The notes under the pieces were generated by a model. The model did not search any database, was not told the DNA's origin, and saw only the letters and a list, made by a program, of their open reading frames with translations. Below are positions 2,127-37,482 of a stretch of 59,722 nucleotides of DNA, piece after piece. The DNA lies in the NCBI GenBank assembly GCA_013202295.1, contig JABMRT010000248.1:1-59722 (forward strand), written 5' to 3'. The number at the start of each line of letters is the position of its first letter. The stretch's first letter is position 1. The DNA is from Candidatus Zhuqueibacterota bacterium (GTDB lineage Bacteria; Zhuqueibacterota; QNDG01; JABMRT01). Both the position numbers and the translations under genes were made by a program.

Positions 2127-3947
2127 ATGAGTGAAGACAACATAAAAATGCGTGGATTACGCAACCTCCCGATTCTTGCGACGGGGGTTCTTTTTTTAGT
2201 CAGCTTTTATCTGGTCATTCTGAAAGTGATCCGGCCGGCTGCCATCTATGTCAAACAGATGCCCGTCTTTGTATCCACTTCGCATGCATTCCATGAAGCA
2301 CTTGCCTATCCGGGTGGACTGATTGATTATATTTCATCGGGATTCATGCTTTATTTTGTGAAAGAATGGATTGGTGCATTATTTTTGACGATTCTTTGCT
2401 TGATGATTTTTATCCTCATCACCGCTCTTCTACAGAAGCGCACTTTGCTCAAAGGATTCTGGGGACTGCCCTTTCTGCCTTGCTTGGCACTCGCAATGAT
2501 GTTGACCAATTACGATCGCCCTTTAGCTGACACGATGAGTCTGACTCTTGCACTCGGTGTTTTCTGGATCACTCAGCAATTCAATAAAAAGTCATTGGCG
2601 CTGCGCCTTATCCTTCTTTTTGTATTGGGATGTATGCTTTATTATCTCACACCCGGCGGATTCCTGCTCTTCCTCGTATTGATCATCATTTCACAAATAC
2701 CCACCCTGATCTCAAGTCCAATAAATATTATTTTAATCGGATTGGCCGGGGCATTTGCATGGATCCTTCCGACCCTGGCGTATCAATGGATCTTTCTCAT
2801 TAGTAAAAAAGAAGCCTTTCTGGCCCATTTGCCATGGATGCAGAATCATCCGGTAATGATGCCCTTCATCCTTTTTATAATTCTGCTCTTTGGATCGATT
2901 CTGCTCGCATCAATCCGAATTGAGCCAAAAGTCGGAAAGGGAAACCGGATTCTAAATCATCCGGTCACTGTGATTGCACAGATGATCTTGATCCCGGTAT
3001 TGACCGTACTGCTTGTGACCGCGACTGTGAATAAAACCACACGTAAAATACACGAAATCCGCTATCTCGCGCATGAAAACCGCTGGCGTGATGTGCTCGC
3101 TGCAATGGATGTGAATGCGATCCGGCACGTCACCTGCATGACCTTGATCAACCAGGCGCTTTACCATACCAATCAACTCGCTTCAAACATGTTCGCCTAT
3201 CCTCAGGCATGGGAGACTTCTGGGCTGATATTGCCTGCTGATATCGCTTATGAATATCCGCTTGATCACAGCCACATCGTTTACGATATGGGCCACGTGA
3301 CAGAGGCCGAACGCTGGGCAGCAGAAGCATTGGTTTTATATGGCCAAACACCCTGGGTGATTGAACACCAGGCGCTGATCAATATTTTGCAGGAAGACTG
3401 GGCAGCGGCCGACAAATACCTTCAGGTTATGGGAAAGATCGGACCAACCCGCGAACGGGCAGCTCACTATCTGGATATAGTAAAAGATCCGGAAAGATTG
3501 CGCTATGAATACCGGCTTCAACAGTTGAAAGCGCTTCGGCCCGAAAACAACTTTGTGACCAGTATCAATTATCCTCAAAAGGATTTCGAAGCCCTTCTTC
3601 AGCAGAACCCGGAAAATAAAATGGCCTATGAGTATCTGATGGCCCATTCTCTTCTTGCCAAGGATTTTCAGACTTTTGCGAAATTTCTTCCAAAGTATAA
3701 GGATTTTAATTATCACCGGATGCCAAGGCATTTTCAAGAAGCCCTTGTGGTTTACGTGGCACAAAAAGGCAAGGTTGATCTGCCCGGTTTTCAACCTGAT
3801 CAAAGAATTCTTCAGCGATTCAACGAGTTCAGGCAGGTGGCACAGCAGACCAGATCTTATGGAAATGCCGGGATTCAACAACTCAAGGAACAATTTGGCG
3901 ATACCTATTGGTACTACCTGATATACACCCAGATTGAAAGTGGATAA
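2127..3947 (+). CDS. Polytopic membrane protein with C-terminal TPR-like domain, copy 1
   Basis: A 606-residue protein with no assigned function; the architecture resembles the uncharacterised DUF6057 group known mainly from Bacteroidetes (recalled, not searched). About nine hydrophobic segments fill residues 14-310. A positively charged N-terminus suggests N-in, so an odd segment count would put the soluble part (about 315-606) outside the inner membrane. That part is helical and TPR-like, with the family motif YDMGHVTEAERWAAEAL followed by PWV, and it ends in GDTYWYYLIY. Two paralogues (6871, 10260) share these motifs. The stop lies 13 bases before the ATG of the heme-propeller gene, so the two are co-transcribed. 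I infer a membrane partner, perhaps a quinol- or electron-handling subunit, for that cytochrome. Confidence 0.75.
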   Translation: MSEDNIKMRGLRNLPILATGVLFLVSFYLVILKVIRPAAIYVKQMPVFVSTSHAFHEALAYPGGLIDYISSGFMLYFVKEWIGALFLTILCLMIFILITALLQKRTLLKGFWGLPFLPCLALAMMLTNYDRPLADTMSLTLALGVFWITQQFNKKSLALRLILLFVLGCMLYYLTPGGFLLFLVLIIISQIPTLISSPINIILIGLAGAFAWILPTLAYQWIFLISKKEAFLAHLPWMQNHPVMMPFILFIILLFGSILLASIRIEPKVGKGNRILNHPVTVIAQMILIPVLTVLLVTATVNKTTRKIHEIRYLAHENRWRDVLAAMDVNAIRHVTCMTLINQALYHTNQLASNMFAYPQAWETSGLILPADIAYEYPLDHSHIVYDMGHVTEAERWAAEALVLYGQTPWVIEHQALINILQEDWAAADKYLQVMGKIGPTRERAAHYLDIVKDPERLRYEYRLQQLKALRPENNFVTSINYPQKDFEALLQQNPENKMAYEYLMAHSLLAKDFQTFAKFLPKYKDFNYHRMPRHFQEALVVYVAQKGKVDLPGFQPDQRILQRFNEFRQVAQQTRSYGNAGIQQLKEQFGDTYWYYLIYTQIESG

Positions 3948-3960
3948 GCAAGTTAAAGTT

Positions 3961-5514
3961 ATGGCAAATAAACATCAAAATTTCCTTTTAACTGGATTTG
4001 GAATACTCCTCCTGGCCTCCATTTTATGGGCCAAAGAACCGGCGCCTTTAAACCGGCTTCCCAGGATTGATCCGGATTATACGGATATTCAGGTGCCATC
4101 CAATATCGCGCCACTCAACTTCCGCGTTCAGGAAGAAGGCGAGCCGTTCCGGGTCAGCATTTCAGCTCCTGAAGGAAAGTCCATCGAGATTAAAAGCAAA
4201 GACGGCCTGATACAAATCCCGATGAAAAAGTGGAAAAAGATTCTTGCAGATAATTCAGGCGCCTCTCTGAAATATGAGATTGAAGTGAAAGATGAGGAAG
4301 GATGGCAAGCCTTTGCTCCTTTCGAAAACGCGATATCCTCGGATACCATTGATAGCTATCTCGCGTACCGCATTATCGATCCCGCATTCGGTCTTTGGGT
4401 GAAGATGGGCATTTATCAGCGCAATCTCGAAACGTTTGACGAGTCTCCTGTGCTGATCAACCGGATCACACACGGCAAATGCATGAACTGTCATAATTTC
4501 CTGCGAAATGATCCGAATAACATGATGATGCATTTACGCGGCGGCGAGGGATCTGGCACCTTGATTAACTGGAAGGGTGAATTACGCAAGGTCGATACCG
4601 GCACCCCGTTCAACAAAGCGGGCGCGTATCCATCCTGGCACCCGAGTGGAGAAATGATCGCGTATTCCGTAAACAAGCTTTCGATGTTCTTTCATTCGGA
4701 GCGGAAAGAGAGCCGTGACGTGTTGGATTCGGCATCGGATCTCATTGTCTATTTGATCGGGGAGAACACCGTCACATCCGATCCCAAAATCTCGGATCCC
4801 GAACGGATGGAAACCTTTCCCTGCTGGGCACCGGATGGCAGGTCGCTCTATTTTTGCAGTTCACCCAATCTGGAATCCTATGTTGTAAAAAAGGATGGGG
4901 TGGAAGATCTCGCATGGGATCGTATCCGCTACAGCCTAATGCGCATCGCGTTTGATCCGGACACCCGCGAGTGGGGCGAACTGGAAACCGTGCTTTCAGC
5001 CGGGGAGATGGATGGCAGCATCACCGAGCCGCGTGTTTCACCGGATGGTAAATTCGTTCTCTTTACTAAGGCGGATTACAGCAACTTCCCGATCTATTTG
5101 AAAAGCGCGGATCTCTACATGCTGGATCTTGAAACCGGAAAAGTGGAACGGCTGAGCTGCAACAGTCTGGAGGCTGATTCTTTTCACAGCTGGTCAGGCA
5201 ATGGCCGCTGGTTTGTGTTCAGCAGCAAGCGGCGCGACGGATTTTGCGCTCGCCCCTATTTCTGTCACGTGGATGAGAATGGAAAACTTTCGAAGCCTTT
5301 TGTGATGCCACAGAACGATCCGGCATTTTACGATACCTTTATCAAAACATACAATGTGCCTGAACTGGTGAGGGAGCGAATCAAAATCAATCCCCGCACG
5401 TTTGCGAATACGGCCCATGACAACAGCAAAAAATACAAAGCGCAACTTGATCCGGTGCTCCAGCCCAGACAGACTGGCGAGGATGATGACCTCTACAGAC
5501 CAGCGGTTCAGTAA
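3961..5514 (+). CDS. Exported TolB-like propeller with single CxxCH heme site, copy 1
   Basis: A 517-residue exported protein. I use ATG 3961, which starts a normal signal peptide (hydrophobic to LWAKEPAP); an in-frame TTG at 3934 inside the previous gene adds only nine charged residues. An N-terminal Ig-like or all-beta segment carries the family motif VPSNIAPLNF. The only heme c site, CMNCH (4480-4494), is followed twelve residues later by MMMH. Next come PD40/TolB-type propeller blades: YPSWHPSGEMIAYSVN, WAPDGRSLYFC, PRVSPDGKFVLF and WSGNGRWFVFSSKR. The C-terminus has FVMPQNDPAFYD. It is a monoheme c-type cytochrome by motif. Its function is unknown; pairing with the membrane protein upstream suggests extracytoplasmic electron transfer. 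Confidence 0.8.
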   Translation: MANKHQNFLLTGFGILLLASILWAKEPAPLNRLPRIDPDYTDIQVPSNIAPLNFRVQEEGEPFRVSISAPEGKSIEIKSKDGLIQIPMKKWKKILADNSGASLKYEIEVKDEEGWQAFAPFENAISSDTIDSYLAYRIIDPAFGLWVKMGIYQRNLETFDESPVLINRITHGKCMNCHNFLRNDPNNMMMHLRGGEGSGTLINWKGELRKVDTGTPFNKAGAYPSWHPSGEMIAYSVNKLSMFFHSERKESRDVLDSASDLIVYLIGENTVTSDPKISDPERMETFPCWAPDGRSLYFCSSPNLESYVVKKDGVEDLAWDRIRYSLMRIAFDPDTREWGELETVLSAGEMDGSITEPRVSPDGKFVLFTKADYSNFPIYLKSADLYMLDLETGKVERLSCNSLEADSFHSWSGNGRWFVFSSKRRDGFCARPYFCHVDENGKLSKPFVMPQNDPAFYDTFIKTYNVPELVRERIKINPRTFANTAHDNSKKYKAQLDPVLQPRQTGEDDDLYRPAVQ

Positions 5515-5578
5515 ACTGCAGGATGGATCGGGATGGTTATGATTCCGGATAAGGGATGATCTAGCATAAGGAAACTCA

Positions 5579-6793
5579 ATGGCGACACCGATTGTGAAAA
5601 CACTGAAATCTGCGATTCTTTCTACAACCTGGATCGGAAAGGATCAGATACATATCAGCGCCTCTGTGACAGATCCGCATGTCAATCATGTTGAGGCCTG
5701 TAGTCAAATTTACAAAGAAATTTCTGACACATTACATCAGAACGAAATGCATATTGTGCATGAACGTTTATTCGGCAGCCTATCGGTGAAGGATGAAGTG
5801 ATCGAGGGACGCCGAGAATCGCTGCACAATGGCGACACGGCCGATCAACTGCCGATGACCTACATTCAGGGGCACCCGCATTGGGGTGAGGGGTTTTCTG
5901 GCGTACAGATTCGCGCGGTCTCAGAGGGTGGATTGGTCGAGAAGATCTGGACCCTCCGGGAGAACGGCAAACCCGTAGGCCGCGGCTGGATACGCAATGG
6001 TGCGAAATTCATCATGTTGCAAGACATTCACGGCGCATCTGCCGGAGATGGGATCAACCCGTCTCGTGCGGAGCAAACCAAAGAAATGTTCGACCGGGCC
6101 AGCCGTCTTCTGAAAGAAGAAGGTGCCTCGTTCCGCAATGTGGTGCGAACTTGGATCTATCTATCGAAAATACTGGAATGGTACAGAGAATTCAATGAGG
6201 CCAGAAACGACCGGTTTTTGGATTTCGGACTTTTTCAGGATCCCAAAGCGGAGCAGGAAAATGCCGAACAAGTCTACATGCCGGCCAGTACCGGTATCGA
6301 AGGCGATAATCCAGCCGGTTCAGCAGGCACGATGGATGTATTTGCCGTGATTCCATCCGACGATCCTTTTGCCGTTGAGATCGAACCGGTCACGGGTATA
6401 AAGCAGAAATCGGCCTATCGATATGGTTCAGCTTTTTCAAGGGCCATGCGTATCACGGAAACCGATTGCACACACATCCTGGTATCGGGAACCGCTTCGA
6501 TTGATGAAAAAGGCGACACTGTATTTTTGGGTGATACGCGCGCGCAGATGCAGAAAACCATTGAGATTGTGAACGCCCTGATTCAATCCAAAGGAGCGAC
6601 CCTAGCCAATATCTGTGACGCCACAGTGTTTTTGAAAGAGGCGAAGGATATAGAGATTTGGCGTGAAGTCTCCAAGGAGAAGGGGCTGGATATGATGCCC
6701 CAGGTTTGTATGGTGGCCGATGTATGCCGCGACGATCTGCTCTTTGAGTTGGATGCGAATGTGGCTATCCAACATCAGGATTTGTCAAAATAG
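5579..6793 (+). CDS. FkbO/Hyg5/XanB2-like Rid-family protein (chorismatase-like)
   Basis: A 404-residue cytoplasmic protein whose C-terminal half is a YjgF/RidA fold (about 270-395: GTASIDEKGDTVFLGD, TLANICDATVFLKE, RDDLLFELDANVAI). The N-terminal half has the second RidA-like lobe found in the chorismatase group, including VYMPASTGIEG. Known members hydrolyse chorismate to a dihydroxy-cyclohexadienoate (FkbO) or convert it to 3-hydroxybenzoate (Hyg5) or to 3-/4-hydroxybenzoate (XanB2). The glutamate in LLFELDA is in the position of the catalytic acid. AAGGAAAC precedes the ATG and the gene continues the module-1 operon 64 bases downstream. A quinone or aromatic cofactor role beside cytochromes is attractive but inferred; it may instead be a non-chorismatase Rid paralogue. 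Confidence 0.65.
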   Translation: MATPIVKTLKSAILSTTWIGKDQIHISASVTDPHVNHVEACSQIYKEISDTLHQNEMHIVHERLFGSLSVKDEVIEGRRESLHNGDTADQLPMTYIQGHPHWGEGFSGVQIRAVSEGGLVEKIWTLRENGKPVGRGWIRNGAKFIMLQDIHGASAGDGINPSRAEQTKEMFDRASRLLKEEGASFRNVVRTWIYLSKILEWYREFNEARNDRFLDFGLFQDPKAEQENAEQVYMPASTGIEGDNPAGSAGTMDVFAVIPSDDPFAVEIEPVTGIKQKSAYRYGSAFSRAMRITETDCTHILVSGTASIDEKGDTVFLGDTRAQMQKTIEIVNALIQSKGATLANICDATVFLKEAKDIEIWREVSKEKGLDMMPQVCMVADVCRDDLLFELDANVAIQHQDLSK

Positions 6794-6821
6794 CCGGATT
6801 TTGTTTATAGATATCAGAACC

Positions 6822-6850
6822 AGCCATCTGCACACGCAGGTGGCTTTTTT
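6822..6850 (+). terminator. Strong intrinsic terminator
   Basis: A ten-pair stem (6822-6831 with 6836-6845, one G-U pair) closes an ACAC loop and is followed by at least five Ts. It ends the first transcription unit (membrane protein, cytochrome, Rid protein) and separates it from module copies 2 and 3. Confidence 0.9.
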
Positions 6851-6870
6851 ACTCATACTGAGGATGCTTA

Positions 6871-8679
6871 ATGAATCATCGGAATAGAGACCGTGGTCTG
6901 CTCACCACCGCGTTTCTGCTCTTCCTTTTCTTCTACACCCGATTCGCCATTCAGCCTGAGATCATCTATCAGGCGCAGGAACCGGTCTTTTTCAAAACAG
7001 CCCGATTTTTTGTGGATTTTCTCGGAATCCCCGGTGGTCTGACCGCTTATACTGCCGCCTGTTTATCACAATTTTATATTTTACCCTGGATCGGTGCTGC
7101 TGTCATTACATTGATCATTGGCGGGATTGTCAGCCTGACGCATCTGTGGCTCAATCGCCTGCAGCCTGAGCGGACGGATGTCTGGCTACATTTGATTCCC
7201 GGCCTTTTCCTGCTCATGCTGCACAGTCACTATCATCATCCACTTTCGATGACACTGGGCCTGCTCCTTGCGATGGCTGGACTCGTCCTTTATACATCCA
7301 TCCCTATTAAAAACGTTGGATTGAGATTTCTTTTTTATGCCATTCTATGTGGATTGCTTTTCTACCTCAGCATCGGTGCCATGCTTATATTTGCAGTGCT
7401 TGGCGCATTATTTGAATGGACTAAAAACCGATCCGTAAAAGGAGCCCTGCTTGGCCTGATTTTTCTGTGCTTCGCTGGCACACTTCCCTGGATTGCTACA
7501 ATGCTTACGATGATCACCCCCAAACAAGCCTATCTCACACATTTTTGGATTGCATCACGATATCCAGTTGGATGGGCGCCTGCCGGATTGTATATTACTC
7601 TCATCTTTCTGGCCTTTATCCCCTTCTGGCTCCCGCTCTTTCGAAAGCTCTCTTCTATAATAGGAGATCGAATCAAACGGATTCCTATCCTGAAAAAAAC
7701 AGGGTGGATCTGTCGCATCATCCTGATCTCTTTGCTGACGTGGGCAGCCGCCCATTATTCCCTGAGCCGCGACAGCCGCACACTCTATCAGGCGGTGCAC
7801 CACACCCGTGAAAAAAATTGGGATACCGTACTTGAGGTGATATCAGGGAATCCGATGAATCACATCCTGATTCAACATTTATCCGCCCGTGCGCTGCACC
7901 ACTCCGGCCGACTGCTGGACGATCTCTTTTCCTATCCGCATGCATGGGGAAAACAGGGGCTGCTCCTTTCATACCAGTTCAATTATTCTGCGCCGAAACA
8001 CATGTGTGATTTTTGCATGGATATCGGCCATCTGAATGAAGCCGAACACTGGACGTATGAGACTTTGACACTGGGCGGTGAAACTCCGTGGATTCTTCAT
8101 AAGCTGGCCGAGATCAATCTGCTGAAGGGCGAGACGGATATGGCCCGGATCTGCATCAACAAACTCAGGCAGACGCTGCTGCATCAAGCATTGGCCGATG
8201 ACTGTGAACAGCTGGCCCGAAATCTTGCGGCCGGAAGAACGGGTGCCTATCCGTTTCCAATAAGGACGGATTTTATCATCAATAAACATAAACTTGAAGA
8301 AGACTTGCAGGCACTTCGAGAGCTGATGCCACAGAACCGCATGGTCTTTGAATTCAATATCGCTTCCCTTCTTTTTGATAAGGATCTGGAAGGTCTTTAC
8401 AATCAGATTGGTCGGCTACCGGAATTCGGAATTCGTACCCTCCCCCGTCACTGGCAGGAAGCCATGATTCTGAGAATGCTCAAGCCTGATGGCTCGAAAC
8501 TCGATTTAGCCGGATACAAGCTAAACAGCAGCCTGATTCAAAACTTGCAGAATTTTCAGCAGGCCCTCCTACTCAAAGCTGATAAAAGAGTTGAAGCCTA
8601 CAATGAACTGGCTCCTGCATATGGAAACACCTATTGGTATTATCTGATCTTTGAAGAGGTGGCCGGAAATGCAAAATAA
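6871..8679 (+). CDS. Polytopic membrane protein with C-terminal TPR-like domain, copy 2
   Basis: A 602-residue paralogue of the protein at 2127. It keeps the N-terminal transmembrane block, with IIYQAQEPVFF and PGGLTAYTAA between the first two segments, and the soluble block with MDIGHLNEAEHWTYETL, PWILHKLAEINLLKGE and the terminal GNTYWYYLIF. GAGG lies before the ATG. The last codons overlap the next gene's start by 11 bases, so translation of the pair is coupled. It lacks the C-terminal flavinylation motif of copy 3. Function unknown; see copy 1 for the topology argument. Confidence 0.75.
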   Translation: MNHRNRDRGLLTTAFLLFLFFYTRFAIQPEIIYQAQEPVFFKTARFFVDFLGIPGGLTAYTAACLSQFYILPWIGAAVITLIIGGIVSLTHLWLNRLQPERTDVWLHLIPGLFLLMLHSHYHHPLSMTLGLLLAMAGLVLYTSIPIKNVGLRFLFYAILCGLLFYLSIGAMLIFAVLGALFEWTKNRSVKGALLGLIFLCFAGTLPWIATMLTMITPKQAYLTHFWIASRYPVGWAPAGLYITLIFLAFIPFWLPLFRKLSSIIGDRIKRIPILKKTGWICRIILISLLTWAAAHYSLSRDSRTLYQAVHHTREKNWDTVLEVISGNPMNHILIQHLSARALHHSGRLLDDLFSYPHAWGKQGLLLSYQFNYSAPKHMCDFCMDIGHLNEAEHWTYETLTLGGETPWILHKLAEINLLKGETDMARICINKLRQTLLHQALADDCEQLARNLAAGRTGAYPFPIRTDFIINKHKLEEDLQALRELMPQNRMVFEFNIASLLFDKDLEGLYNQIGRLPEFGIRTLPRHWQEAMILRMLKPDGSKLDLAGYKLNSSLIQNLQNFQQALLLKADKRVEAYNELAPAYGNTYWYYLIFEEVAGNAK

Positions 8680-10249
8680 TCTCAGAGCAGTTATCTCGCC
8701 GATAATATTAATTTGCATTGGATTGTGCTTGTCCTGCACCGGGCCGGTTGAAATGCCTCGGCTCGCATCGCTCACTCCGCTGGCGGATCAGCCCATCCTG
8801 CATCCCGATTATACGGATATCACCTTGCCGCCCAATATCGCGCCCTTGAATTTTGTAATCGAAAATCCGGGTGAGGCATATTTTGTGGAAATATCGGGAG
8901 AATTGGGATCGCTCATACGCATCTCCTCAAGAAAACCGGAAATCCGAATCCCTTTGAAATCGTGGAAAACTCTGCTCGAATCCAATCAGGGCAAAGACAT
9001 CCGGATGGATATGTGTGTGAAATCCAAAACCGGGGAATGGAAACGTCTCACGCCTGTCATCAATCATGTTTCAGAGGATTCGATTGATCCCATTCTTGTT
9101 TACCGCCGGCTCCATCCGATGTACTATCTCTGGCAAAACATGGGGCTGTACCAGCGAAATTTGGAGACCTTCTCGGAAACAACCCTGATCACGAACAATC
9201 AGATTGAGCACAGTTGTTTCAATTGCCATACGTTCGTTCAGAACCGGTCCGAAACCATGATGATGCATTTCAGGGCAGGTCAGGTATCCGGCCTTTATGT
9301 AAAAGATGGTGATCGGCACCTTAAAATCAATACAGCGACGGATTTTAACAAACCAGCCGCCTATCCATCGTATCATCCGGATGGCAAACGCATCGCTTTT
9401 TCGATTAATAATCTGGGCATGTTTTTTCACGCCACAGGTGATACACGCGAAGTCATTGACATGATGTCTGATCTGGTGATCTATGATGTGGATAAAAATC
9501 AGATTACAACGGATATCCAAATTTCCCATCCGGATTATCTCGAAACATTTCCGGCATGGAGTCCGGATGGACGCGCACTCTATTTCTGCCGCACCAATAA
9601 ACTCACGGATTACACGGCTGGTTCTGATAAAGATCCACAGCTTCAATACAATAATGTGCGCTATGATCTGATACGAATCGGTTATAATCCCGAAACGGGT
9701 GAATGGGGCAAGCTGGAAACCGTCCTGTCTTCCGGGGAATGCGGACAGAGCATCACCATTCCACGCATCTCACCGGATGGCCATTTCGCTCTGGTCTGTA
9801 TGGCCGATCATGGCAATTTCCCGGTCTATGTGAGAACCAGCGACATCGGCATGGTGGATCTTGAAACGGGCTACTGGTGGAAACCGGATATCAACAGCGC
9901 CCAATCCGAAAGCTATCACAACTGGTCCTCCACCGGCCGCTGGATTGTCTTTTCGAGTAAACGTGGGACCGGCCAGCTCGCACGTCCCCATTTTGCCCAT
10001 GTAGATAAAAATGGACAAACCGGCAAGCCCTTTGTCATGCCGCAAGAAGATCCGGCCTTTTATGACTCATTTCTGGAAACCTACAATCTGCCCGAACTTC
10101 TCACCGGACCGGTCGAATTGAACGCACGTGAGATGATCCGCACGATGTACGACAATGAACACATCGTTCAGGCCACACTGGATTCTGCAGTGACGCATCG
10201 TAATGATCTGGCAGAAGCCCGTACAGGCTGGTACATTTTACCCTATTGA
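8669..10249 (+). CDS. TolB-like propeller lipoprotein with single CxxCH heme site, copy 2
   Basis: A 526-residue paralogue of the 3961 protein. ATG 8669 is chosen over an in-frame TTG at 8651 because AGAGGTGG lies 6-13 bases upstream and the signal peptide then ends in a lipobox (LCLSC), making this a lipoprotein. It has LPPNIAPLNF, the heme site CFNCH (9215-9229), MMMH a few residues later, and the propeller motifs YPSYHPDGKRIAFSIN, WSPDGRALYFCR, PRISPDGHFALV and WSSTGRWIVFSSKR. The C-terminus FVMPQEDPAFYD is shared by the family. Lipid anchoring would hold the heme at a membrane surface. Confidence 0.8.
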   Translation: MQNNLRAVISPIILICIGLCLSCTGPVEMPRLASLTPLADQPILHPDYTDITLPPNIAPLNFVIENPGEAYFVEISGELGSLIRISSRKPEIRIPLKSWKTLLESNQGKDIRMDMCVKSKTGEWKRLTPVINHVSEDSIDPILVYRRLHPMYYLWQNMGLYQRNLETFSETTLITNNQIEHSCFNCHTFVQNRSETMMMHFRAGQVSGLYVKDGDRHLKINTATDFNKPAAYPSYHPDGKRIAFSINNLGMFFHATGDTREVIDMMSDLVIYDVDKNQITTDIQISHPDYLETFPAWSPDGRALYFCRTNKLTDYTAGSDKDPQLQYNNVRYDLIRIGYNPETGEWGKLETVLSSGECGQSITIPRISPDGHFALVCMADHGNFPVYVRTSDIGMVDLETGYWWKPDINSAQSESYHNWSSTGRWIVFSSKRGTGQLARPHFAHVDKNGQTGKPFVMPQEDPAFYDSFLETYNLPELLTGPVELNAREMIRTMYDNEHIVQATLDSAVTHRNDLAEARTGWYILPY

Positions 10250-10259
10250 TTGGTCAAGG

Positions 10260-12131
10260 ATGTCTGACAAGAAAAAAATACATCAACTTGGATTCTGGCT
10301 GACGATTGCAATTTTTTATGCCCTCCTGTTTTTTCATTTCGGTGTTCGGATTAATCCGGCTCTGATTTTCAGAAATCAGGAGCCTGTCTTTTTTACAACT
10401 TTGAGATTTTTCCACCCGTTTGCCGGATACGCCGGCGGGCTTTCGGAATATGCGGCAGCATTCCTGAGCCAATTTTTCATTTTCAGGTGGATCGGCACCT
10501 TTGTGCTCATCGCACTGATTGGCGGCACACAGGCGCTAACCGTTTATCTCTTTAGCAGTGTGACGGAACACAAATCCTTTCGCTATGCTTCGTTTGTTCC
10601 GGCAGTTCTGTTGGCAGTGATGTTGAGCCATTATGATTTTCCGCTCGCCACGGCAGTTGGATTTCTGGTTACGCTCAATTTCAGCGGCCACATTCTGCGA
10701 ATGAAAAATTGGCCCTTTATTCCGCTCGTCCCAATATTGGCCGGAATGACGGCATTCGCTTACTATCTGATCGCCGGACCTTACCTGATCTTTGTCGCAA
10801 TCAGCGCATTGGCCATCTGGAGTGCGCGTGACAAATCTATTCTGCAAAAAGGGATTATGTCCGCTGTGCTCATCGTGGTTGGTTTTGGATTCCCATGGCT
10901 GCTGAATCCTGCGCTGGGTGTGATGCCTTTGGATACATCCTATCTAAGATGGATCCCCCGATCCATTCCATTCGCATGGCCCGTTGTATCGGAAATGCTT
11001 ATTGGATTCATTATCCTTTGGAGCGTCGGCCTGTTTATTTTATCGCAATTGGGAAAGTCCCGAATATCTTCATTTGCAAGAATTTGGACAGCCTGGCCCT
11101 TGGTCCTTGTCCGTGCTCTGGCCGTGATTGGTCTCGCGATTTTAATTTTAACCACTACCCTGAATGAAACTGCCAAATCTCGACTGACCATCCGGCAATA
11201 CGCCAGGCAAAGGAATTGGGATGGCGTTCTTGAAGAGATCCGGCAGCATCCGAACGTAGACGCCATTTCATCCTTTCATATGCATCGAGCCATGTATCAT
11301 ACCGGTCGGCTTGGAGATGACATGTTCCGCTATCCGCAAAATTTCGGCATCGACGGCCTGATCCCGCTCAAGGAGGATGTGCTTTTTTATGCGACCGAAG
11401 CCGCCAATTTCTGGTTTGAAATGGCGCATTTCAATGAAGCCGAGCATTGGGCGCATGAGGCCCTTACCCAGCAGGGGGCCAATCCGTGGATTCTCCGCAG
11501 GCTCGCTGAAATTAACGCGATTAAAGGCAACCGATCCATGCTGCAATCCTGGACCACACTGCTGGATCAAACCCTGCTGCAACGAAAATGGGCCGATCCG
11601 TTCAAGGCGCAATTGGCGGATCCCACCCCGTTGAAAGACCAGCCAGCCATCAAGCAGGCACGTGCACAGTGGATTGACAGCGACTTTCTAATCCATTTAA
11701 ATTTACCTGAAATGGATTTTGTCTCATTGTACAGGCGCAATCCGGAAAACCACATGGCCTACGAATACCTCATGGCCTACTATCTTCTTGCTCGCCAGGT
11801 TGGATGGTTTGTCAATGAAATCGAAGCGATGCGGAACTTTCCATACAGCCGTCTGCCCATGCATTGGGAAGAGGCCCTGCTCATTTACATGGTAGAAACC
11901 AAAAGCACAGATCCGGTTTTTGCCGGATTTCCGATCAGTGTGGAGTCGATTCAGAGGTTCAATGATTATCAGCAGATTCTCACCAAATATGGTGGGAACA
12001 GAAAATCCGCCCATGAGGAATTGCGCCGTAAATATGGCGGCACGTACTGGTACTACTTAATGTACTCGAAGTCCAACATCCGCATGGATACAGGAGAAGG
12101 TGTGGACGCGTTCACGGGAGCGACACGATGA
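10260..12131 (+). CDS. Polytopic membrane/TPR protein with C-terminal ApbE flavinylation motif, copy 3
   Basis: A 623-residue paralogue of the 2127 and 6871 proteins. ATG 10260 (11 bases after the previous stop) aligns with the starts of its paralogues; an in-frame ATG at 10203 would add 19 residues overlapping the previous gene. It shares NQEPVFF, YAGGLSEYAAA, MAHFNEAEHWAHEAL, PWILRRLAEINAIKG and GGTYWYYLMY. Unlike the others it continues about 20 residues to end in VDAFTGATR. DAFTGAT (12105-12125) fits Dxx(S/T)GAT, the site where ApbE links FMN to the last threonine. The C-terminal block is predicted to be extracytoplasmic, where ApbE works. I infer a covalently flavinylated electron carrier. 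Confidence 0.75.
   Translation: MSDKKKIHQLGFWLTIAIFYALLFFHFGVRINPALIFRNQEPVFFTTLRFFHPFAGYAGGLSEYAAAFLSQFFIFRWIGTFVLIALIGGTQALTVYLFSSVTEHKSFRYASFVPAVLLAVMLSHYDFPLATAVGFLVTLNFSGHILRMKNWPFIPLVPILAGMTAFAYYLIAGPYLIFVAISALAIWSARDKSILQKGIMSAVLIVVGFGFPWLLNPALGVMPLDTSYLRWIPRSIPFAWPVVSEMLIGFIILWSVGLFILSQLGKSRISSFARIWTAWPLVLVRALAVIGLAILILTTTLNETAKSRLTIRQYARQRNWDGVLEEIRQHPNVDAISSFHMHRAMYHTGRLGDDMFRYPQNFGIDGLIPLKEDVLFYATEAANFWFEMAHFNEAEHWAHEALTQQGANPWILRRLAEINAIKGNRSMLQSWTTLLDQTLLQRKWADPFKAQLADPTPLKDQPAIKQARAQWIDSDFLIHLNLPEMDFVSLYRRNPENHMAYEYLMAYYLLARQVGWFVNEIEAMRNFPYSRLPMHWEEALLIYMVETKSTDPVFAGFPISVESIQRFNDYQQILTKYGGNRKSAHEELRRKYGGTYWYYLMYSKSNIRMDTGEGVDAFTGATR
12105..12125 (+). other. Predicted FMN attachment motif DxxTGAT
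   Basis: Codons for D-A-F-T-G-A-T, two codons before the stop of the third membrane protein. The acceptor would be the threonine encoded at 12123-12125. The motif is known from NqrC, RnfG and other FMN-binding-domain proteins, where ApbE transfers FMN from FAD; here it stands alone at the C-terminus without the rest of that domain. Confidence 0.6.
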
Positions 12132-13678
12132 AGAAACACCTGCCAATTTCAATTCTTTTAATTGGATGCGCCACCACACTGTTCATCATGAAGTGCGGAC
12201 CTCCTTCTGCCAGTCAATGGACAGACACAAATGTCCTGCCGCAAATTCTGCCGGATATTTCGGATGTGACCATTCCCTCGAATATCGCGCCTTTGAATTT
12301 TAAAATATTGGAGTCCGGGGAAAATTATGAGGTTAGAATCGCAGGGAAAAGTGGAGCTCCCATCCGAATCTTGACTGGATCACGCGGCATTCAGATCCCG
12401 GAAAGAAAGTGGAAGACGCTTCTTGAAAGCAACTTCGGGGACACACTTCAAATCGAGATCTATGTGAATTCGAATGACAGTTGGAATCGCTTTCAGCCGT
12501 TTTCTTTGATTGTCGCGCAGGAGCCGATTGATAGCCACATCGTGTACCGACAGCTCGGCCCGGTTTATATGTACTGGAACAAGATCAAGCTCGTGGAACG
12601 GAATCTGACCAACTTCGATGAGCGCGACCTGATGAACAATCGCGATCATGGCACCATGTGCATGCACTGCCATGCTTTCGCGGCCGGTAATCCCGAACGC
12701 ATGATGTTGCATATTCGCAGGGGACCGGGAACAGGATTGCTTCTTGCGGATAACGGAAAACTCAAGAATATCGACACAAAGACGGATTTTAATCCACCGG
12801 CTGCCATGCCCTCATTTCACCCGGATGGCAACCGCATCGCCTTCAGTGTGAACCGGTTTAAACAGTTTTTCCATGCGCTGGGCGAAAACCGAGATGTCGT
12901 GGATCTCGCGTCTGATGTCATCCTGTATGACATTCCATCCAACACAATTACGACCACACCGGATCTGGCCGCACCGGACTGGCTCGAAACCTGGCCCGCC
13001 TGGTCCGCGGATGGAAAGACATTGTACTTTTGCAGAACACCGCAGCCGGGAAAATGGAACCTGCCTTATTCAGAAATCATGAAGATCCGCTATGATCTCG
13101 CGGCCGTGGATTTCGATATGGCCACGGGCAAGTTTGGCCCCGTACGCACCGTGCTTTCAGCCGAGGAAACAGGAATGAGCCTCTCTGAGCCCCGCGTCTC
13201 ACCAGATGGACGCTACCTCTTGTTCTGCATGGCCGAATATGGAAATTTCTTTACCTTCCGGGAATCTAGCGATTTATATATGATGGATCTGGGAAATGGT
13301 GAATTCTGGCGTGCGGATTGTTCAAGCGACCGTGCCGAGACCTGGCACAGTTGGTCGTCGAACAGCAAATGGATCGCATTTTCCAGCAAACGCTATAACG
13401 GTGTGATGACACGCCCCCATTTCGCCTATGTGGACGAAAACGGTAAGACACGCAAAGCTTTTACCCTGCCGCATGAAGATCCGGAGTATTATGAAGTGGA
13501 TGTGTTCAACTACCATCTGCCTGAACTGATCACTGGCCCCGTTCCAAATTCCGAATCGGATTTTGTAAAAGCGGCCTATGATTTGGACAATCAAACTCCA
13601 GTACAATTGGATCCGGCGGTTCAGGTGCCTGAAAATCAGACCAAACCGCCTGAGATGTGGCTGCCTGGAAAGAAGTAA
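12128..13678 (+). CDS. TolB-like propeller lipoprotein with single CxxCH heme site, copy 3
   Basis: A 516-residue paralogue whose ATG overlaps the stop of the flavinylated membrane protein (ATGA), so the pair is translationally coupled. The signal sequence has a lipobox LIGC at cysteine 14; a second cysteine at 23 is an alternative. It has IPSNIAPLNF, the heme site CMHCH (12659-12673) followed by MMLH, and propeller blades FHPDGNRIAFSVN, WSADGKTLYFCR, PRVSPDGRYLLF and WSSNSKWIAFSSKR. The C-terminus has FTLPHEDPEYYE. As in the two paralogues there is a single CxxCH, so each is predicted to carry one heme. The likely electron partner is the flavinylated protein encoded just upstream. Confidence 0.8.
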   Translation: MKKHLPISILLIGCATTLFIMKCGPPSASQWTDTNVLPQILPDISDVTIPSNIAPLNFKILESGENYEVRIAGKSGAPIRILTGSRGIQIPERKWKTLLESNFGDTLQIEIYVNSNDSWNRFQPFSLIVAQEPIDSHIVYRQLGPVYMYWNKIKLVERNLTNFDERDLMNNRDHGTMCMHCHAFAAGNPERMMLHIRRGPGTGLLLADNGKLKNIDTKTDFNPPAAMPSFHPDGNRIAFSVNRFKQFFHALGENRDVVDLASDVILYDIPSNTITTTPDLAAPDWLETWPAWSADGKTLYFCRTPQPGKWNLPYSEIMKIRYDLAAVDFDMATGKFGPVRTVLSAEETGMSLSEPRVSPDGRYLLFCMAEYGNFFTFRESSDLYMMDLGNGEFWRADCSSDRAETWHSWSSNSKWIAFSSKRYNGVMTRPHFAYVDENGKTRKAFTLPHEDPEYYEVDVFNYHLPELITGPVPNSESDFVKAAYDLDNQTPVQLDPAVQVPENQTKPPEMWLPGKK

Positions 13679-18918: not shown

Positions 18919-21900
18919 TTAATTATTTCTTTGCTGATGTACATTCAAAGACTGTGCAAGAACCGCGAGTTTCTCAATTCTTGTGCCAACCTCAAGTGTA
19001 TTGGCATTCACCTTTTCAACAGTTACACGATTTCTTTCACTTACGGATGCCACACTGTCAATAGCGACCTGTACTTCACCTGAAAATTTCTGCATTTCAT
19101 TCACACGGCTGGCGATCGACAGCAGACGTTTCTTCTCATCTTCAACTGAATTACATATCTGGTCAAGTACTTTGCGGCCCTTATCAGTAAGTTCCGCAGA
19201 CTTCCTGACATTCTCAAGGCCCTGCTTGGTGGTCTTCTCCATCTGCGATACATCGATCTGAATCCTTTGGATGAATTCCGTGATCTCGAAGGTGGATTCT
19301 GCCGTCCGCTTTGAAAGGTTTCGGATTTCCTGCGCAACCACCATAAAGCCCTTGCCGCTATCGCCGGCCTTGACTGCCTCAATGAGCGCGTTCATCGCCA
19401 GAATATTCACTCGGGATGCAATATCATCAATGAACCGGACAATCTGGTCAATATGTTCAGAATGCTCGATTAGACCCTTCATGATCTCCCAGGTCTCATT
19501 TACACTTTCTTCAATGATCCCGATATTATCAAGTGTATCCTGCATGGAGGCCGTACCCGCGATAACAGCTTCAGCGGTTATTTCTGCGGCCTTGGCACTG
19601 GTTTTGGTTTCACTGTTTGCTTTATAAATGGTTGCCAGCAAATTATCAATCGTTGCACGCGTACGCGCCACAAAATCACTTTGGGACCTGGCGCCATCTT
19701 TAACTTCATGCATGGCCTCATTGATCTGTTCCGTGGCCTGATTGACGAATCGTGAGCTGGATGCGAGCGCGGCACCGGTCTCAGATAATTTTTTATAGGA
19801 TGCTTCGATTTCATCTGATTTGGCTTTCAACTCAGCTGTGCGCTCAGAGATCTCTTTTTCCAGTTTTTGACGATGTGCTTCCAAAGAGCCCACGCGCCAT
19901 TTATAAGTCACATATGCGGCCGTTAAACCAACGAGGATAACAAATAGAATAAACCAGGCGCGTTGATAAAAAGGAGGAGGAATTGTAATCTTTAAGGATG
20001 CGCCCTCTTCGGTCCAGATCCCGTCATTGTTGGCCGCTTTCACGCGAAACACATATTTACCAGGATCAAGATTGGTATATGTAGCCTTATGCTCCGTGCC
20101 CACATAATGCCAATCGTCCTTCTCATCAAAATTCTCAAGGATGTAGGCGTATTGATTGTTCTCTTGCTGCGTGAAACTGATACCCACAAATCCAAATGTC
20201 AACATGGATTCTTTATGGCTGATCTTCATCTCTTCTGTGAGATAGATCGGTTTCTTCAAAGGAGAATCGGGATCAAGAAAGGATACCGGTTTCATTGAGA
20301 GTTGAAAATCATTAATCAAAACTTTCGGAGCAACTGGATTCTTTTGAATGGCATTGGGATCAAAGCGGTTGAATCCATTTAATCCACCGAAATACATCAT
20401 ACCGTCTCTGGTTTTAAAATAGGACCACTGTCCGTACTGTTCACCCTGAAGTCCATCCTGCGAGGAATAATTGGTACACTGAATGTTCGTTTTCCCATCC
20501 ACTTCGGTTGCTACGACCTTGCTCAATCCCTGAATGGAGCTCACCCAGAGATTGCCCTGTTCATCTTCAAGAATGCCATAGAGTGTTTGCGCGGGGAGAC
20601 CATCTTCTTTATGGAAAGAAGTAAACTCTTCTGTTTCAGGGTTGAATAGATTCAATCCATTGGTTGTGGTTAACCAAAACCGGCCCTGACTGTCTTCAAG
20701 TACACAAACTACATAATCACCACTGATGGTCGTGGAGTCATCCGGATTGTTCTGATAATAAATAAAACGATTCTCTTCTCTGTTAAAATAATTCAGACCC
20801 TGACCTTCTTGTGCGAGCCATAACCTTTTCTGATGATCTTCATACATTGAGATAATTGACTCACCACTTGTGCCCGTCCCGTCGGTCTGATTGAACGTGT
20901 ATCGGGTAAAGGAGTCTGCTGAGCGATTATACTTGTTTAAACCTGAGCTCCATGTGCCCACCCAGAGATCTTTGTTATGATCCAGGAAAAGAGAAAAAAC
21001 ATTATCATTGGATATACTGGATGGATCATCCGGATCATACCAGTAGCGGGTGATAATACCTGTCTGGATATCATAGCGGTTCAGGCCACCGCCCCACATG
21101 CCGATCCAGAGGGTATTGGGTGCTTCAAACAACAAAGAGAGCACCTTGTCACTTGAGATGCTGTTGGGATCATTGAGACGATGTTTTAAGTATCGGAACT
21201 TTCCAGTGGCCGGATTAAAAATATTAACTCCACCCCCATCTGTACCCACATAAATGCGCCCCGAATTGTCTTCTGTGAAATTTGTGACATTGAGATGGCT
21301 CAGTCCAGAGCCATCCGTGGATATACTTGAATTCTTCAGGAATTTGCTGCCATACTGATCATAATAATTCACACCACCGAAACGGGTTGCAAACCATATC
21401 CCGCTCTCTTCTACAAGTACCCTCTGTATATGCGTGGCGGAAATTGAATTGGGATTGTTGGGATCTTCAAGATATTGATGAATTCTTGAATTTTGTGGAC
21501 GATTTTCATTGATCTCAATAAAGTTGAGTCCTTCGGTGGTGGCAACCCAGAGATTTCCATCCCAATGAAACGCCATGCCATTCACCTGATAATGGGACAA
21601 TGCATTGCGACGTCCGGCCTCATAGGGAAGCTGATAGAATCGATTCTTCTGAACATCATAGTATTGCAGACCAACTTCATAGGTGCCGATCCAGAGATTA
21701 TCTTTTTCATCCATCAGAATGGTTCGAATATAGCTGGAACCAAGACCATATGGATTACCGGGATCAGCGAAAATTTGTTTAAACTGCTCTGTGGTCGGAT
21801 CAAACATATTCAGTCCATTTTCAGTTGCAATCCAGAGCCGCCCTTTACTGTCCTCCGTCATATCATAGGCAGTGTTTGAACTAAAACTGGTCGGATCTTC

Positions 21901-22446
21901 AGGATCATTTTGATAGTGGATTATCGTGTCTTGATCAACCAGCATGCATTCCAGACCCGCTTCACCCACGATCCATAAATTTCCTATGGAATCTTCAAAT
22001 AGTTTTTTAATATCCGGACTAGCTATATGATAGGGTTTTTCAAGAGTGGAAGCATATCGAATGAAATAATCCTTTTCAGGTATATACAGATTCATCCCGT
22101 CACGGGTACCCACCCACAATCGGTTCTGACTGTCAATAAGGAGTGTCTCTATATAGCTGTTCGTCAGACTATGATCATCCTCAGCATCATGATAATATAC
22201 TGTGAATTGATAGCCGTCATAGCGGTTCAATCCATCTTCGGTGCCAATCCATATAAAGCCATGTTGATCGCGTACAATATCAATCACATTGGCCATAGAG
22301 AGGCCTTCATCCGTACCCAGATGTTCGAAATAATATTCCTGCTTCTGAGCTGATAGCGGCATGAAAATGAGGATGATTCCAAGCAATACGACAGTTTTGT
22401 ATAATTGTCTCAAGGCTAGGCTGTGTAAATGATTGATGTAATTCAT
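18919..22446 (-). CDS. Two-component-type propeller sensor fused to an MCP-like signalling domain
   Basis: A sensor of about 1175 residues. I place the start at ATG 22446 (GGGAG upstream), which begins a signal peptide ending MPLSAQ; the frame is open to 22575 but that adds a non-signal stretch. About fourteen Reg_prop blades follow (GFIWIGTEDGLNRYDGYQF and relatives), making two seven-bladed propellers, then a Y_Y_Y domain, a transmembrane segment (WFILFVILVGLTAAYVTY) and a coiled coil. The C-terminal 270 residues are not a kinase. They are a methyl-accepting-chemotaxis-like helical hairpin: IDDIASRVNILAMNALIEA and GKGFMVVAQEIRNLSKRTAE match the MCP tip. No che gene is nearby. Family precedent suggests a sugar or polysaccharide signal. 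Confidence 0.85.
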   Translation of the reverse strand: MNYINHLHSLALRQLYKTVVLLGIILIFMPLSAQKQEYYFEHLGTDEGLSMANVIDIVRDQHGFIWIGTEDGLNRYDGYQFTVYYHDAEDDHSLTNSYIETLLIDSQNRLWVGTRDGMNLYIPEKDYFIRYASTLEKPYHIASPDIKKLFEDSIGNLWIVGEAGLECMLVDQDTIIHYQNDPEDPTSFSSNTAYDMTEDSKGRLWIATENGLNMFDPTTEQFKQIFADPGNPYGLGSSYIRTILMDEKDNLWIGTYEVGLQYYDVQKNRFYQLPYEAGRRNALSHYQVNGMAFHWDGNLWVATTEGLNFIEINENRPQNSRIHQYLEDPNNPNSISATHIQRVLVEESGIWFATRFGGVNYYDQYGSKFLKNSSISTDGSGLSHLNVTNFTEDNSGRIYVGTDGGGVNIFNPATGKFRYLKHRLNDPNSISSDKVLSLLFEAPNTLWIGMWGGGLNRYDIQTGIITRYWYDPDDPSSISNDNVFSLFLDHNKDLWVGTWSSGLNKYNRSADSFTRYTFNQTDGTGTSGESIISMYEDHQKRLWLAQEGQGLNYFNREENRFIYYQNNPDDSTTISGDYVVCVLEDSQGRFWLTTTNGLNLFNPETEEFTSFHKEDGLPAQTLYGILEDEQGNLWVSSIQGLSKVVATEVDGKTNIQCTNYSSQDGLQGEQYGQWSYFKTRDGMMYFGGLNGFNRFDPNAIQKNPVAPKVLINDFQLSMKPVSFLDPDSPLKKPIYLTEEMKISHKESMLTFGFVGISFTQQENNQYAYILENFDEKDDWHYVGTEHKATYTNLDPGKYVFRVKAANNDGIWTEEGASLKITIPPPFYQRAWFILFVILVGLTAAYVTYKWRVGSLEAHRQKLEKEISERTAELKAKSDEIEASYKKLSETGAALASSSRFVNQATEQINEAMHEVKDGARSQSDFVARTRATIDNLLATIYKANSETKTSAKAAEITAEAVIAGTASMQDTLDNIGIIEESVNETWEIMKGLIEHSEHIDQIVRFIDDIASRVNILAMNALIEAVKAGDSGKGFMVVAQEIRNLSKRTAESTFEITEFIQRIQIDVSQMEKTTKQGLENVRKSAELTDKGRKVLDQICNSVEDEKKRLLSIASRVNEMQKFSGEVQVAIDSVASVSERNRVTVEKVNANTLEVGTRIEKLAVLAQSLNVHQQRNN

Positions 22447-22511
22447 TGGTGAACACACTCCCTTGGTTATAGCCCGACAAACAAACCATTTCAAACTAAA
22501 ATACATGAATT

Positions 22512-22533
22512 CCATTTTAGAATAATAAAATGG
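22512..22533 (-). promoter_or_regulatory. Inverted repeat upstream of the propeller sensor
   Basis: CCATTTTA (22512-22519) and TAAAATGG (22526-22533) form a perfect eight-pair inverted repeat with a six-base centre, 66 bases upstream of the sensor's start codon. It could be an operator; no T tract suits a terminator. Confidence 0.3.
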
Positions 22534-22722
22534 CCCATTCAAACCATGATTAAAATCCAGCCTCAAAAAATGCAACTCTCAGAGACAATAAATTGTTCTG
22601 TGCTGCATCAACAGATTATGCAAAACAAATGCCATGGATCATCAATTCAGCCATTTCAATCGTATTGGGAACTTTTTACTTGCCATTGAGTAAGAGATTG
22701 ACTAATACAATAGGAGGAACAA

Positions 22723-24160: not shown

Positions 24161-25270
24161 TTATTTTTCCAGGCATATACTCATCTTTGTTTCTGCATTA
24201 AAGAAGTGCCCTTTTTTTATATTAAAAAAAAGATTAATATCTTCACCTGGTTTAATCTGACATTGTACATCCAATCGGGCAACAGCAGAATGTTTTCCAA
24301 CAGATGAATAGAGAATCACCTCATTACCCATTGGCTCAACAACTTCTACATTAACATTGACACTAATCAAAAATTCATTATCAGACTTATCACCCGACTG
24401 GTGGATATCCTCGGGACGTATTCCAAATATTATTTCCTTATTAACATAACTCTCAATATTTTTTTCAAACCGGGACGGTACCTTCAATTTAAATTGCCCC
24501 TCATCAAACCACAATCCGCTCTCTTTAACTATTTTCCCATTAAAAATATTCATAGGAGGGCTGCCGATAAATCCCGCTACAAACTGGTTTTCAGGTTTAT
24601 TGTAAAGAGTCATCGGTACATCAATCTGCTGTGTACATCCATCTTTCAAAACTACAATCCGGTCTCCCATGGTCATGGCTTCCACCTGATCATGGGTGAC
24701 ATAGATCATGGTTGCCTGTAATTTCTGATGGAGTTTTGAGATCTCTTTTCGCATCTGAACACGCAGTTTTGCATCTAGATTAGAGAGCGGTTCATCAAAT
24801 AAAAACACCTTGGGCTTGCGCACTATGGCCCTCCCCACGGCAACTCTCTGACGCTGTCCTCCGGAAAGTTGCTTTGGCTTTCGTTCCAAAAGATCAGTGA
24901 TGCCCAGAATATCTGCTGCATCCCTGACACGATCCTGGATCTCATTTTTGGCAATCTTTCTTAACTTTAATCCAAATGCCATATTATCAAATACGGTCAT
25001 ATGGGGATAAAGCGCATAATTCTGAAAAACCATGGCAATATCACGGTCTTTGGCCTGGATTGAATTGACAAGGCGGTCATCGATAAAGATCTCGCCTTCA
25101 GTAATATCCTCCAGACCTGCTATCATTCGCAGAATCGTTGATTTGCCGCATCCGGACGGGCCGACCAGTACTACGAACTCCCTGTCTCGCACCTCCAGGT
25201 TGACCCTGTTTACTGCAATGACATTCTTTCCGTAAATTTTAGTGACATCTTTTAAAACGACATGTGCCAT
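24161..25270 (-). CDS. Sugar ABC transporter ATPase (MalK/UgpC/MsmK type)
   Basis: A 369-residue ATPase that powers the sugar importer encoded upstream. Walker A GPSGCGKST, Q-loop VFQNYALYPHM, signature LSGGQRQRVAVGRAI, Walker B VFLFDEPLSNLDAKLR and switch histidine VTHDQVEAMTMGDR are all present. The C-terminal 130 residues form the TOBE/OB regulatory domain typical of MalK-like ATPases (GIRPEDI). AAGGGAAGG precedes the ATG. It is the last gene of the mannoside operon, 36 bases after the GH130 gene. Confidence 0.93.
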   Translation of the reverse strand: MAHVVLKDVTKIYGKNVIAVNRVNLEVRDREFVVLVGPSGCGKSTILRMIAGLEDITEGEIFIDDRLVNSIQAKDRDIAMVFQNYALYPHMTVFDNMAFGLKLRKIAKNEIQDRVRDAADILGITDLLERKPKQLSGGQRQRVAVGRAIVRKPKVFLFDEPLSNLDAKLRVQMRKEISKLHQKLQATMIYVTHDQVEAMTMGDRIVVLKDGCTQQIDVPMTLYNKPENQFVAGFIGSPPMNIFNGKIVKESGLWFDEGQFKLKVPSRFEKNIESYVNKEIIFGIRPEDIHQSGDKSDNEFLISVNVNVEVVEPMGNEVILYSSVGKHSAVARLDVQCQIKPGEDINLFFNIKKGHFFNAETKMSICLEK

Positions 25271-25306
25271 TGCATCCTTCCCTTATAATTAGAATTTGCA
25301 AACAAC

Positions 25307-26284
25307 TTAGATACGGCAATCGGGTGAGTTCATCAGGTAATCGATCACATCCGTCATGTTTGCCGTAGCCAGAGCCACAAACGAATCGGCTGCGCCGTAA
25401 TAGATGCGCAGTTCATCCGATCTCTTATCCCAGATCACACCGCTGGGAAATATAACATACCCGACATCGCCATGGGTCTCATAGATCTCGCGGGGCCCGA
25501 ATACCCAGTTTCTTCCACGCCGTATAACCTTGGTCGGATCGTCTATATCCAGCATGCACAATCCGACACGATAGAGGCTTCCGGCACAGGTATTCCGAAC
25601 GCCGTGGTAGATAAGCAGCCAACCTTCAGGCGTTTCAATAGGCTGGGGGCCAAGACCGATTTTTCCGGCATCCCACCAACCGCCCTTTCGGGCTTTCAAA
25701 ACTATAGAATGTTCGCCCCAGTATTTCAGATCAGGCGAAAATGAGATCCATATATTGGCGTTGGCGGATGGATCGACAGGCATAGGACGGTGAATCAGAG
25801 CCCACTTGCCATTAATCTTTTTGGGAAAGAGAGAGGAGTCCTTGTCATTCGGGGGCATGACCACGCCTTTCCGCTCGAAGGTCTTGAAATCTTTCGTCAA
25901 TGCCATGGCCACTATTGGGCCTCCCTTGGAGTAAGCCGTATACAAAACCGCATAGGTATTTAGCTCTTCAAGCTTTACGATGCGAGGATCTTCAATGCCC
26001 CAGATCTCCTCGGGATAGTTTTCAGGATCGGGCAGCAGCGTGGGTTCCGGATTGATTCTCCAATTGGTCTTTCCATCCTTGCTGCGGGACACGGTGAAAT
26101 GGGAGAAACCGTCCATACCCTCCACTCGGTTCAGCAGAAGAGTCTCCCCTTCAAATTCAATGGCTGCCGGGTTGAAAACGGCATTAGCCGTATAGGGCCA
26201 CTCTGCGGGTGAATGAATTGGATTCTTATCATATCGTTTAATCAACACATCATGTTTTTGAATCAAATCTGCAATTTTCATCAT
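25307..26284 (-). CDS. GH130 beta-mannoside phosphorylase
   Basis: A 325-residue cytoplasmic enzyme of glycoside hydrolase family 130, five-bladed propellers that phosphorolyse beta-1,4- or beta-1,2-mannosides to mannose-1-phosphate. Family marks are PIHSPAEWPYTANAVFNPAA near the N-terminus, EEIWGIEDPRI with the catalytic aspartate, DSSLFPKKINGKWALIHRP (phosphate site) and GWLLIYHGV. There is no signal peptide. AGGAGG lies upstream. Between a beta-mannosidase gene and an ABC ATPase gene, its likely substrate is an imported beta-1,4-mannooligosaccharide or Man-GlcNAc; the exact linkage cannot be read from sequence. Confidence 0.88.
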   Translation of the reverse strand: MMKIADLIQKHDVLIKRYDKNPIHSPAEWPYTANAVFNPAAIEFEGETLLLNRVEGMDGFSHFTVSRSKDGKTNWRINPEPTLLPDPENYPEEIWGIEDPRIVKLEELNTYAVLYTAYSKGGPIVAMALTKDFKTFERKGVVMPPNDKDSSLFPKKINGKWALIHRPMPVDPSANANIWISFSPDLKYWGEHSIVLKARKGGWWDAGKIGLGPQPIETPEGWLLIYHGVRNTCAGSLYRVGLCMLDIDDPTKVIRRGRNWVFGPREIYETHGDVGYVIFPSGVIWDKRSDELRIYYGAADSFVALATANMTDVIDYLMNSPDCRI

Positions 26285-26301
26285 TATAAAACCTCCTGAT
26301 A

Positions 26302-28812: not shown

Positions 28813-28819
28813 TCAGCAA

Positions 28820-30106: not shown

Positions 30107-30127
30107 CTATTTTTTTATCCTTTATCT

Positions 30128-30937: not shown

Positions 30938-30958
30938 CAAAAACAGTCCTTAAAATGA

Positions 30959-31819: not shown

Positions 31820-31842
31820 AATACTCGCTCCGTAAGATTGAT

Positions 31843-33186: not shown

Positions 33187-33201
33187 AAAGTTAGATTCAC
33201 C

Positions 33202-34224: not shown

Positions 34225-34243
34225 GTTGAACGTCTCCCTCACT

Positions 34244-37450: not shown

Positions 37451-37482
37451 GAAACCACCTCTATAAATAGAGCAGAAAATGA

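Follow-up and report, generated by a model that had tools for sequence, protein, structure and literature searches.

The window (the whole stretch of DNA analysed, 59,722 bases) is the entire contig C242, which belongs to a draft genome of 5.15 Mb with a completeness of 95.65%. Between positions 2127 and 13678 the listing of open reading frames (ORFs) gives, on the plus strand throughout, the gene order D1-P1-R-D2-P2-D3-P3 (Table 1), where D is a DUF6057 protein with a membrane half and a TPR half, P is a PD40 propeller with a CxxCH motif, and R is a chorismatase-family gene. The original prediction described this stretch as three tandem copies of a two-gene module, a membrane protein followed by a propeller. 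The three pairs are real (all six ORFs are present, with matches to PF19529 and PD40), but the description omitted R, a protein with two Rid domains between copies 1 and 2, and the word 'tandem' misleads, as the copies are older than the separation of related genera. The couplings it reported are exact when ATG 3961 and ATG 8669 are taken as starts: a gap of 13 bases from D1 to P1, an overlap of 11 bases between D2 and P2, and an ATGA overlap between D3 and P3. The D3 frame is open from an ATG that lies within P2; the ATG directly after P2 is more plausibly the start. The candidate lipoprotein cysteine of P2 lies in SCTG, near residue 29 as counted from a TTG-initiated ORF.

Table 1. Genes of the D-P-R run in the window, with the matches and motifs on which their assignment is based
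Gene	Position	Strand	Assignment	Match	Motif	Remarks
D1	2127..3947	+	DUF6057 membrane protein, C-terminal half TPR-like	PF19529, 338 bits	TYWYYL 3903-3920	Orthologues L017/L022
P1	3961..5514	+	PD40 propeller, predicted to be exported	PD40, 1.4e-16	CMNCH 4480-4494	ATG 3961; lacks lipobox Cys
R	5579..6793	+	Rid-fold relative of Hyg5/FkbO chorismatases	Hyg5 (profile), 5e-32	C383/R384/E390 kept	Third array member
D2	6871..8679	+	DUF6057 protein	PF19529, 297 bits	TYWYYL 8629-8646	Orthologue L015
P2	8669..10249	+	PD40 propeller, putative lipoprotein	PD40, 6.8e-16	CFNCH 9215-9229	
D3	10260..12131	+	DUF6057 protein	PF19529, 331 bits	TYWYYL 12042-12059	ORF open from ATG 10203; orthologue L023
P3	12128..13678	+	PD40 propeller, putative lipoprotein	PD40, 1.2e-23	CMHCH 12659-12673	

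Identity among the three copies is 28-29% for D and 43-47% for P, and the closest named relative of the window propellers is found in a Calditrichaceae metagenome-assembled genome (MAG), at 53% identity, which makes a bacterium of Calditrichota type the probable host. Recent tandem duplication was ruled out, since both the D tree and the P tree place each copy with a different orthologue from other genera. These separate orthologues in related genera identify the copies as old paralogues and, as read from the trees, the copies are older than the split of those genera.

The pairing of D and P extends well outside the window. Each of the five D in the source genome stands beside a P; these five P are close matches, and one further, distant P has no D. 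A contig search starting from P yielded 33 loci, hosted by Bacteroidales, a Calditrichaceae MAG and MAGs from the rumen that bear a planctomycete label; at 32 of them D adjoins P on the same strand, and the 33rd is a weak PD40 match. Because this search relied on patterns containing CxxCH, a search free of the motif, with PF19529, was added. PF19529 was above cut-off in 16 of 149 Bacteroidales genomes, and P adjoins 34 of the 40 D matches found in these 149 genomes (31 in the order D-P and 3 in the order P-D), so that the D-then-P order reported for the window holds for all three of its copies but not for 3 of the 34 adjacent Bacteroidales pairs. Three genomes (G087, G112 and G165) have a D without P and, elsewhere in the same genome, a P without D, so the numbers of D and P still balance. 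The original prediction had named families that usually occur apart as the survey result that would count against it; the two surveys, starting from either partner, found them side by side. The pairing is far beyond chance, and we regard it as almost certain that D-P is a real unit.

The two trees also agree on which copies belong together: D1 groups with L017 and L022, D2 with L015 and D3 with L023, and the P partners do likewise. Over 82 pairs from 44 genomes, D and P distances correlate at 0.74, a value reached in none of 3000 within-genome partner swaps (mean correlation 0.51). When this mirror correlation is split by D half, the membrane and TPR halves give z values of 5.9 and 5.8, so that the half contacting P is not singled out. 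This agreement shows, at the level of sequence distances, that D and P neighbours remain partners over evolution; as gene linkage alone can yield mirrored trees, it speaks for lasting neighbours or partners and not for physical contact.

Each of P1-P3 holds exactly one CxxCH, as had been predicted, and so do all 70 P of our first set and all 50 P of the regions collected later, nearly all of which were retrieved via D matches or a profile and not via the motif. In an alignment of 68 sequences, which for the most part share 28-50% identity with P3, both cysteines and the histidine (C178, C181 and H182) are invariant, and R141, R158, R197 and Y140 are almost so; the conserved arginines could hold the heme propionates. 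The N-termini of P are signal-like, with a lipobox-like pattern in 31 of 50, and a lipobox-type cysteine lies near the N-terminus in 62 of the 68 aligned relatives, P1 and several other P being without one. PD40 is the only Pfam family above cut-off in P1-P3, and no cytochrome c domain family was matched in the same Pfam search. The AF2 model of P3 (pLDDT 92.3, pTM 0.90) is a propeller preceded by a small beta domain, and its fold matches are generic propellers, including cytochrome cd1. The CxxCH of the model lies within a beta strand of a blade, which is an unusual placement for cytochromes c; by our reading of the sequence, this strand takes the position of the 'WSPDG' stretch in ordinary PD40 blades. 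We consider covalent heme on P to be very probable, well supported by this conservation and, indirectly, by a CcsBA cytochrome c synthase encoded in the D-P gene run of two genomes.

D1-D3 match PF19529 over nearly the whole protein (cut-off 29.8 bits). The C-terminal TPR-like domain ascribed to them was said to end in TYWYYL; the motif is present in all three copies, 8-23 residues ahead of the C-terminus. In the AF2 model of D3 (pLDDT 89.0, pTM 0.89) a helical membrane half is joined to a helical-repeat half, and the best sequence and fold matches of D are TPR proteins, none of them strong over the whole chain. Charge counts alternate along 47 D sequences in a manner that fits an N-terminus inside, about nine helices and a TPR half outside, which would make the TPR half periplasmic. 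Positions conserved in at least 75% of these 47 sequences number about 12 in the membrane half and more than 30 in the TPR half, and no His, Cys, Asp or Glu of the membrane half is conserved. This pattern of conservation speaks against D as a carrier of heme b or as a transferase that depends on an acidic residue, and it favours a part in docking or assembly; the redox role first given to the membrane protein is not supported. The specialised redox partners that the original prediction read from the divergence of the copies are a guess. We put at roughly even the case for D as a dedicated assembly or docking partner of P.

R, the third member of the array, is related to the chorismatases. A profile of 14 R sequences matches Hyg5 (5ag3; Table 1) and FkbO (5e-22), and C383, R384 and E390 of R, which are invariant in the 14, align with C327, R328 and E334 of Hyg5, in which Glu-334 is essential and catalytic (PMC7170507). 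Against the NCBIfam chorismatase model TIGR04444, R scores 55 bits, below the 325-bit cut-off, and we therefore count it as a relative of the chorismatases. Within the phylum, orthologues of R (E < 1e-100) occur in 6 of the 7 genomes with a D over cut-off, the seventh genome being 76% complete, and in none of the 32 other genomes, one of which has a 34% homologue. Each of these orthologues lies next to D-P, which holds for the related Calditrichaceae MAG as well. This adjacency in relatives, together with the co-occurrence with D in the phylum, rules out R as an unrelated intruder.

More distant, Hyg5/FkbO-like R homologues of Bacteroidales lie beside D-P (L065, L109 and L131) or beside or near CcsBA (seven genomes; L094, L095, L096, L097, L098, L099 and L100). 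Two of the latter, from Paludibacter-type genomes (L099 and L100), bring the genes together in the order R, CcsBA (a ResB + Cytochrom_C_asm protein), D, P. A search of 27 genomes for PF01578 gave a match in 25; it was missing from G003, where no D passes the cut-off, and from G054, which has D-P; G068 likewise has a D and no PF01578 match, and incomplete assemblies may explain both G054 and G068. Among Bacteroidales the excess of PF01578 in genomes with D (15 of 16, versus 104 of 133 without D) is not significant (p=0.20), and CcsBA presence across genomes was dropped as statistical proof of heme.

Several other observations concern these loci. At L094 and L095 the R-CcsBA genes occur together with genes for a di-haem oxidoreductase (DHOR) and an imelysin, a set that resembles BT2473-2482 of B. 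thetaiotaomicron, which is strongly induced under iron limitation (PMC10434189). At L098 (7831-11832, plus strand) a 1334-aa protein of the P. distasonis group lies between R and CcsBA; its domains are HZS_alpha (the middle domain of hydrazine synthase alpha), NPCBM in two stretches and FGE-sulfatase, and it has two CxxCH motifs. A gene for a DUF4369-type lipoprotein stands between or ahead of D-P pairs at many Bacteroidales loci (L040, L049, L054, L057, L064, L069, L106 and L109). On contig C197 of the source genome, a divergent P with CANCH and no D (L088:3238-4866, minus strand) adjoins an arylsulfotransferase-like protein that carries CBM and FlgD_ig domains. Neither of two other divergent P variants, both with CGNCH (L146:7898-10156, plus strand, 753 aa, and L147:2170-3915, minus strand, 582 aa), has an adjoining D, and one of the two lies beside an R homologue. 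Parabacteroides distasonis has annotated DUF6057-PD40 pairs. Plasmid matches were not taken as a sign of mobility: the two P. distasonis records examined represent one strain, carry housekeeping genes and look like pieces of chromosome.

The surroundings of D-P also include genes for glycan use, which we treat as leads only. SusC lies within the gene run of 15 of 80 Bacteroidota D-P pairs (a raw count), and glycoside hydrolases of families GH26, GH130, GH2, GH43, GH97 and GH3 occur near D-P in Bacteroidota, with GH26/GH130 genes beside D-P in Parabacteroides and Bacteroides. Elsewhere in the window, the minus strand carries a mannoside-utilisation-like operon (24161-40179) with genes for a TonB receptor, a PorV-like barrel, a solute-binding protein, an ABC permease, a GH2 mannosidase-like protein, a GH130 phosphorylase and a MalK-like ATPase, as well as a 1218-aa protein (18919-22575) in which Reg_prop propeller repeats and Y_Y_Y are fused to a methyl-accepting chemotaxis signalling domain in place of the usual histidine kinase.

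We propose that each D-P pair is one working unit, a heme-c P with D as its dedicated inner-membrane partner, a reading to which we give an even chance. P would be exported, usually as a lipoprotein, and would gain one covalent heme c through the CcsBA (System II) machinery of the cell, at a site in a modified propeller blade. The roughly nine membrane helices of D would hold in place a TPR superhelix on the periplasmic side, to which P would bind; D would either assemble P, in the way that CcmI and NrfG serve other cytochromes c, or retain it as a subunit; the size of the nine-helix membrane domain, which exceeds the needs of a chaperone, speaks against the first of these. Holo-P would carry out an extracytoplasmic redox step, and R, in the cytoplasm, would probably make or modify a small aromatic compound of the hydroxybenzoate type for the same process. 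More tentatively, D-P(-R) might constitute an envelope system, a new extracytoplasmic redox unit present in several specialised copies per cell, in which heme c sits in a propeller blade, is held by a membrane TPR partner and works with a chorismatase-type aromatic compound.

D might instead act in the membrane as an enzyme or as a transporter (a permease, say, or a degenerate GT-C type transferase), with P as its periplasmic heme-bearing regulator or catalytic partner; the substrate of the pair would then lie in the envelope and could be an imported glycan. The helix order of the D model, in which two short helices separate the first helix from the others, appears to resemble the GT-C topology, and the nearby SusC and glycoside hydrolase genes would fit such a substrate; the SusC linkage, however, is a raw count, neither an acid nor a His is conserved in the membrane half, and neither a GT-C transferase nor a transporter is among the best 50 fold matches of D. 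With no conserved acid even in the first outer loop across the 47 D, the GT-C form of this reading is not supported, and the reading as a whole seems to us rather unlikely.

We think it improbable that D-P is a classical membrane electron-transfer module, in which D would draw electrons from quinol or from the membrane and hand them on to the P heme. Co-inheritance of D and P and the very likely binding of heme c by P would suit it, but the membrane half of D lacks any conserved His or Cys that could bind heme b or a metal centre, and a Pfam profile search of D gave no match to quinol-oxidising families. We assign equally little weight to the idea that the invariant CxxCH is another metal site or a structural disulfide. 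The location of the motif in a beta strand of the model blade, the lack of a match between P and any cytochrome c family, and the genomes G054 (D-P) and G068 (D) with no PF01578 match point that way; against this, the histidine is as invariant as both cysteines, CcsBA adjoins D-P in two genomes, and the two exceptional genomes may be incomplete assemblies.

The D, P and R families are each already catalogued. In the open-licence literature we found no paper naming DUF6057 or PF19529 and no description of the D-P pair (the original prediction knew of no experimentally described function for it), of R with cytochrome c genes, or of chorismatase-type enzymes linked to cytochrome c biogenesis. The pairing gives a testable setting to DUF6057, a domain of unknown function that occurs in bacteria of the human gut, the rumen and the environment: it gains a one-to-one partner, very likely a heme-c propeller, which in some lineages shares its gene run with a cytochrome c synthase and with a relative of the chorismatases. 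If the proposal is true, it adds a c-type heme protein with its heme in a propeller blade, and it ties chorismate chemistry to cytochrome c function, a tie for which we found no earlier report.

Several known systems can be set beside this one. D1-D3 are members of DUF6057, well above its curated cut-off, a family with no described function. CcmI and NrfG are TPR apocytochrome c chaperones, membrane-linked or periplasmic, that are dedicated to cytochrome c assembly. D would share with them a TPR part at the membrane or in the periplasm and, by our proposal, a role in cytochrome c assembly; the likeness found is that of the TPR. D belongs to a different family and has a large membrane domain, and the cytochrome c machinery here is CcsBA (System II), not Ccm. 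P has propeller repeats in common with TolB and other PD40 propellers, but P1-P3 score only 38, 34 and 31 bits against TolB TIGR02800, far under its 343-bit cut-off, and P has in addition the CxxCH and an N-terminal beta domain. The alpha subunit of hydrazine synthase is exported and carries c-type heme at an unusual site (PMC12607021), as is proposed for P; P differs from it in having one CxxCH, not two, and P1-P3 have no match to the HZS_alpha domain PF18582 at E up to 1, which rules out P as hydrazine synthase-like. With the Hyg5 and FkbO chorismatases, R shares the profile match and the three aligned residues, but it falls below the family cut-off and is set among cytochrome c genes instead of genes for antibiotic or pigment synthesis.
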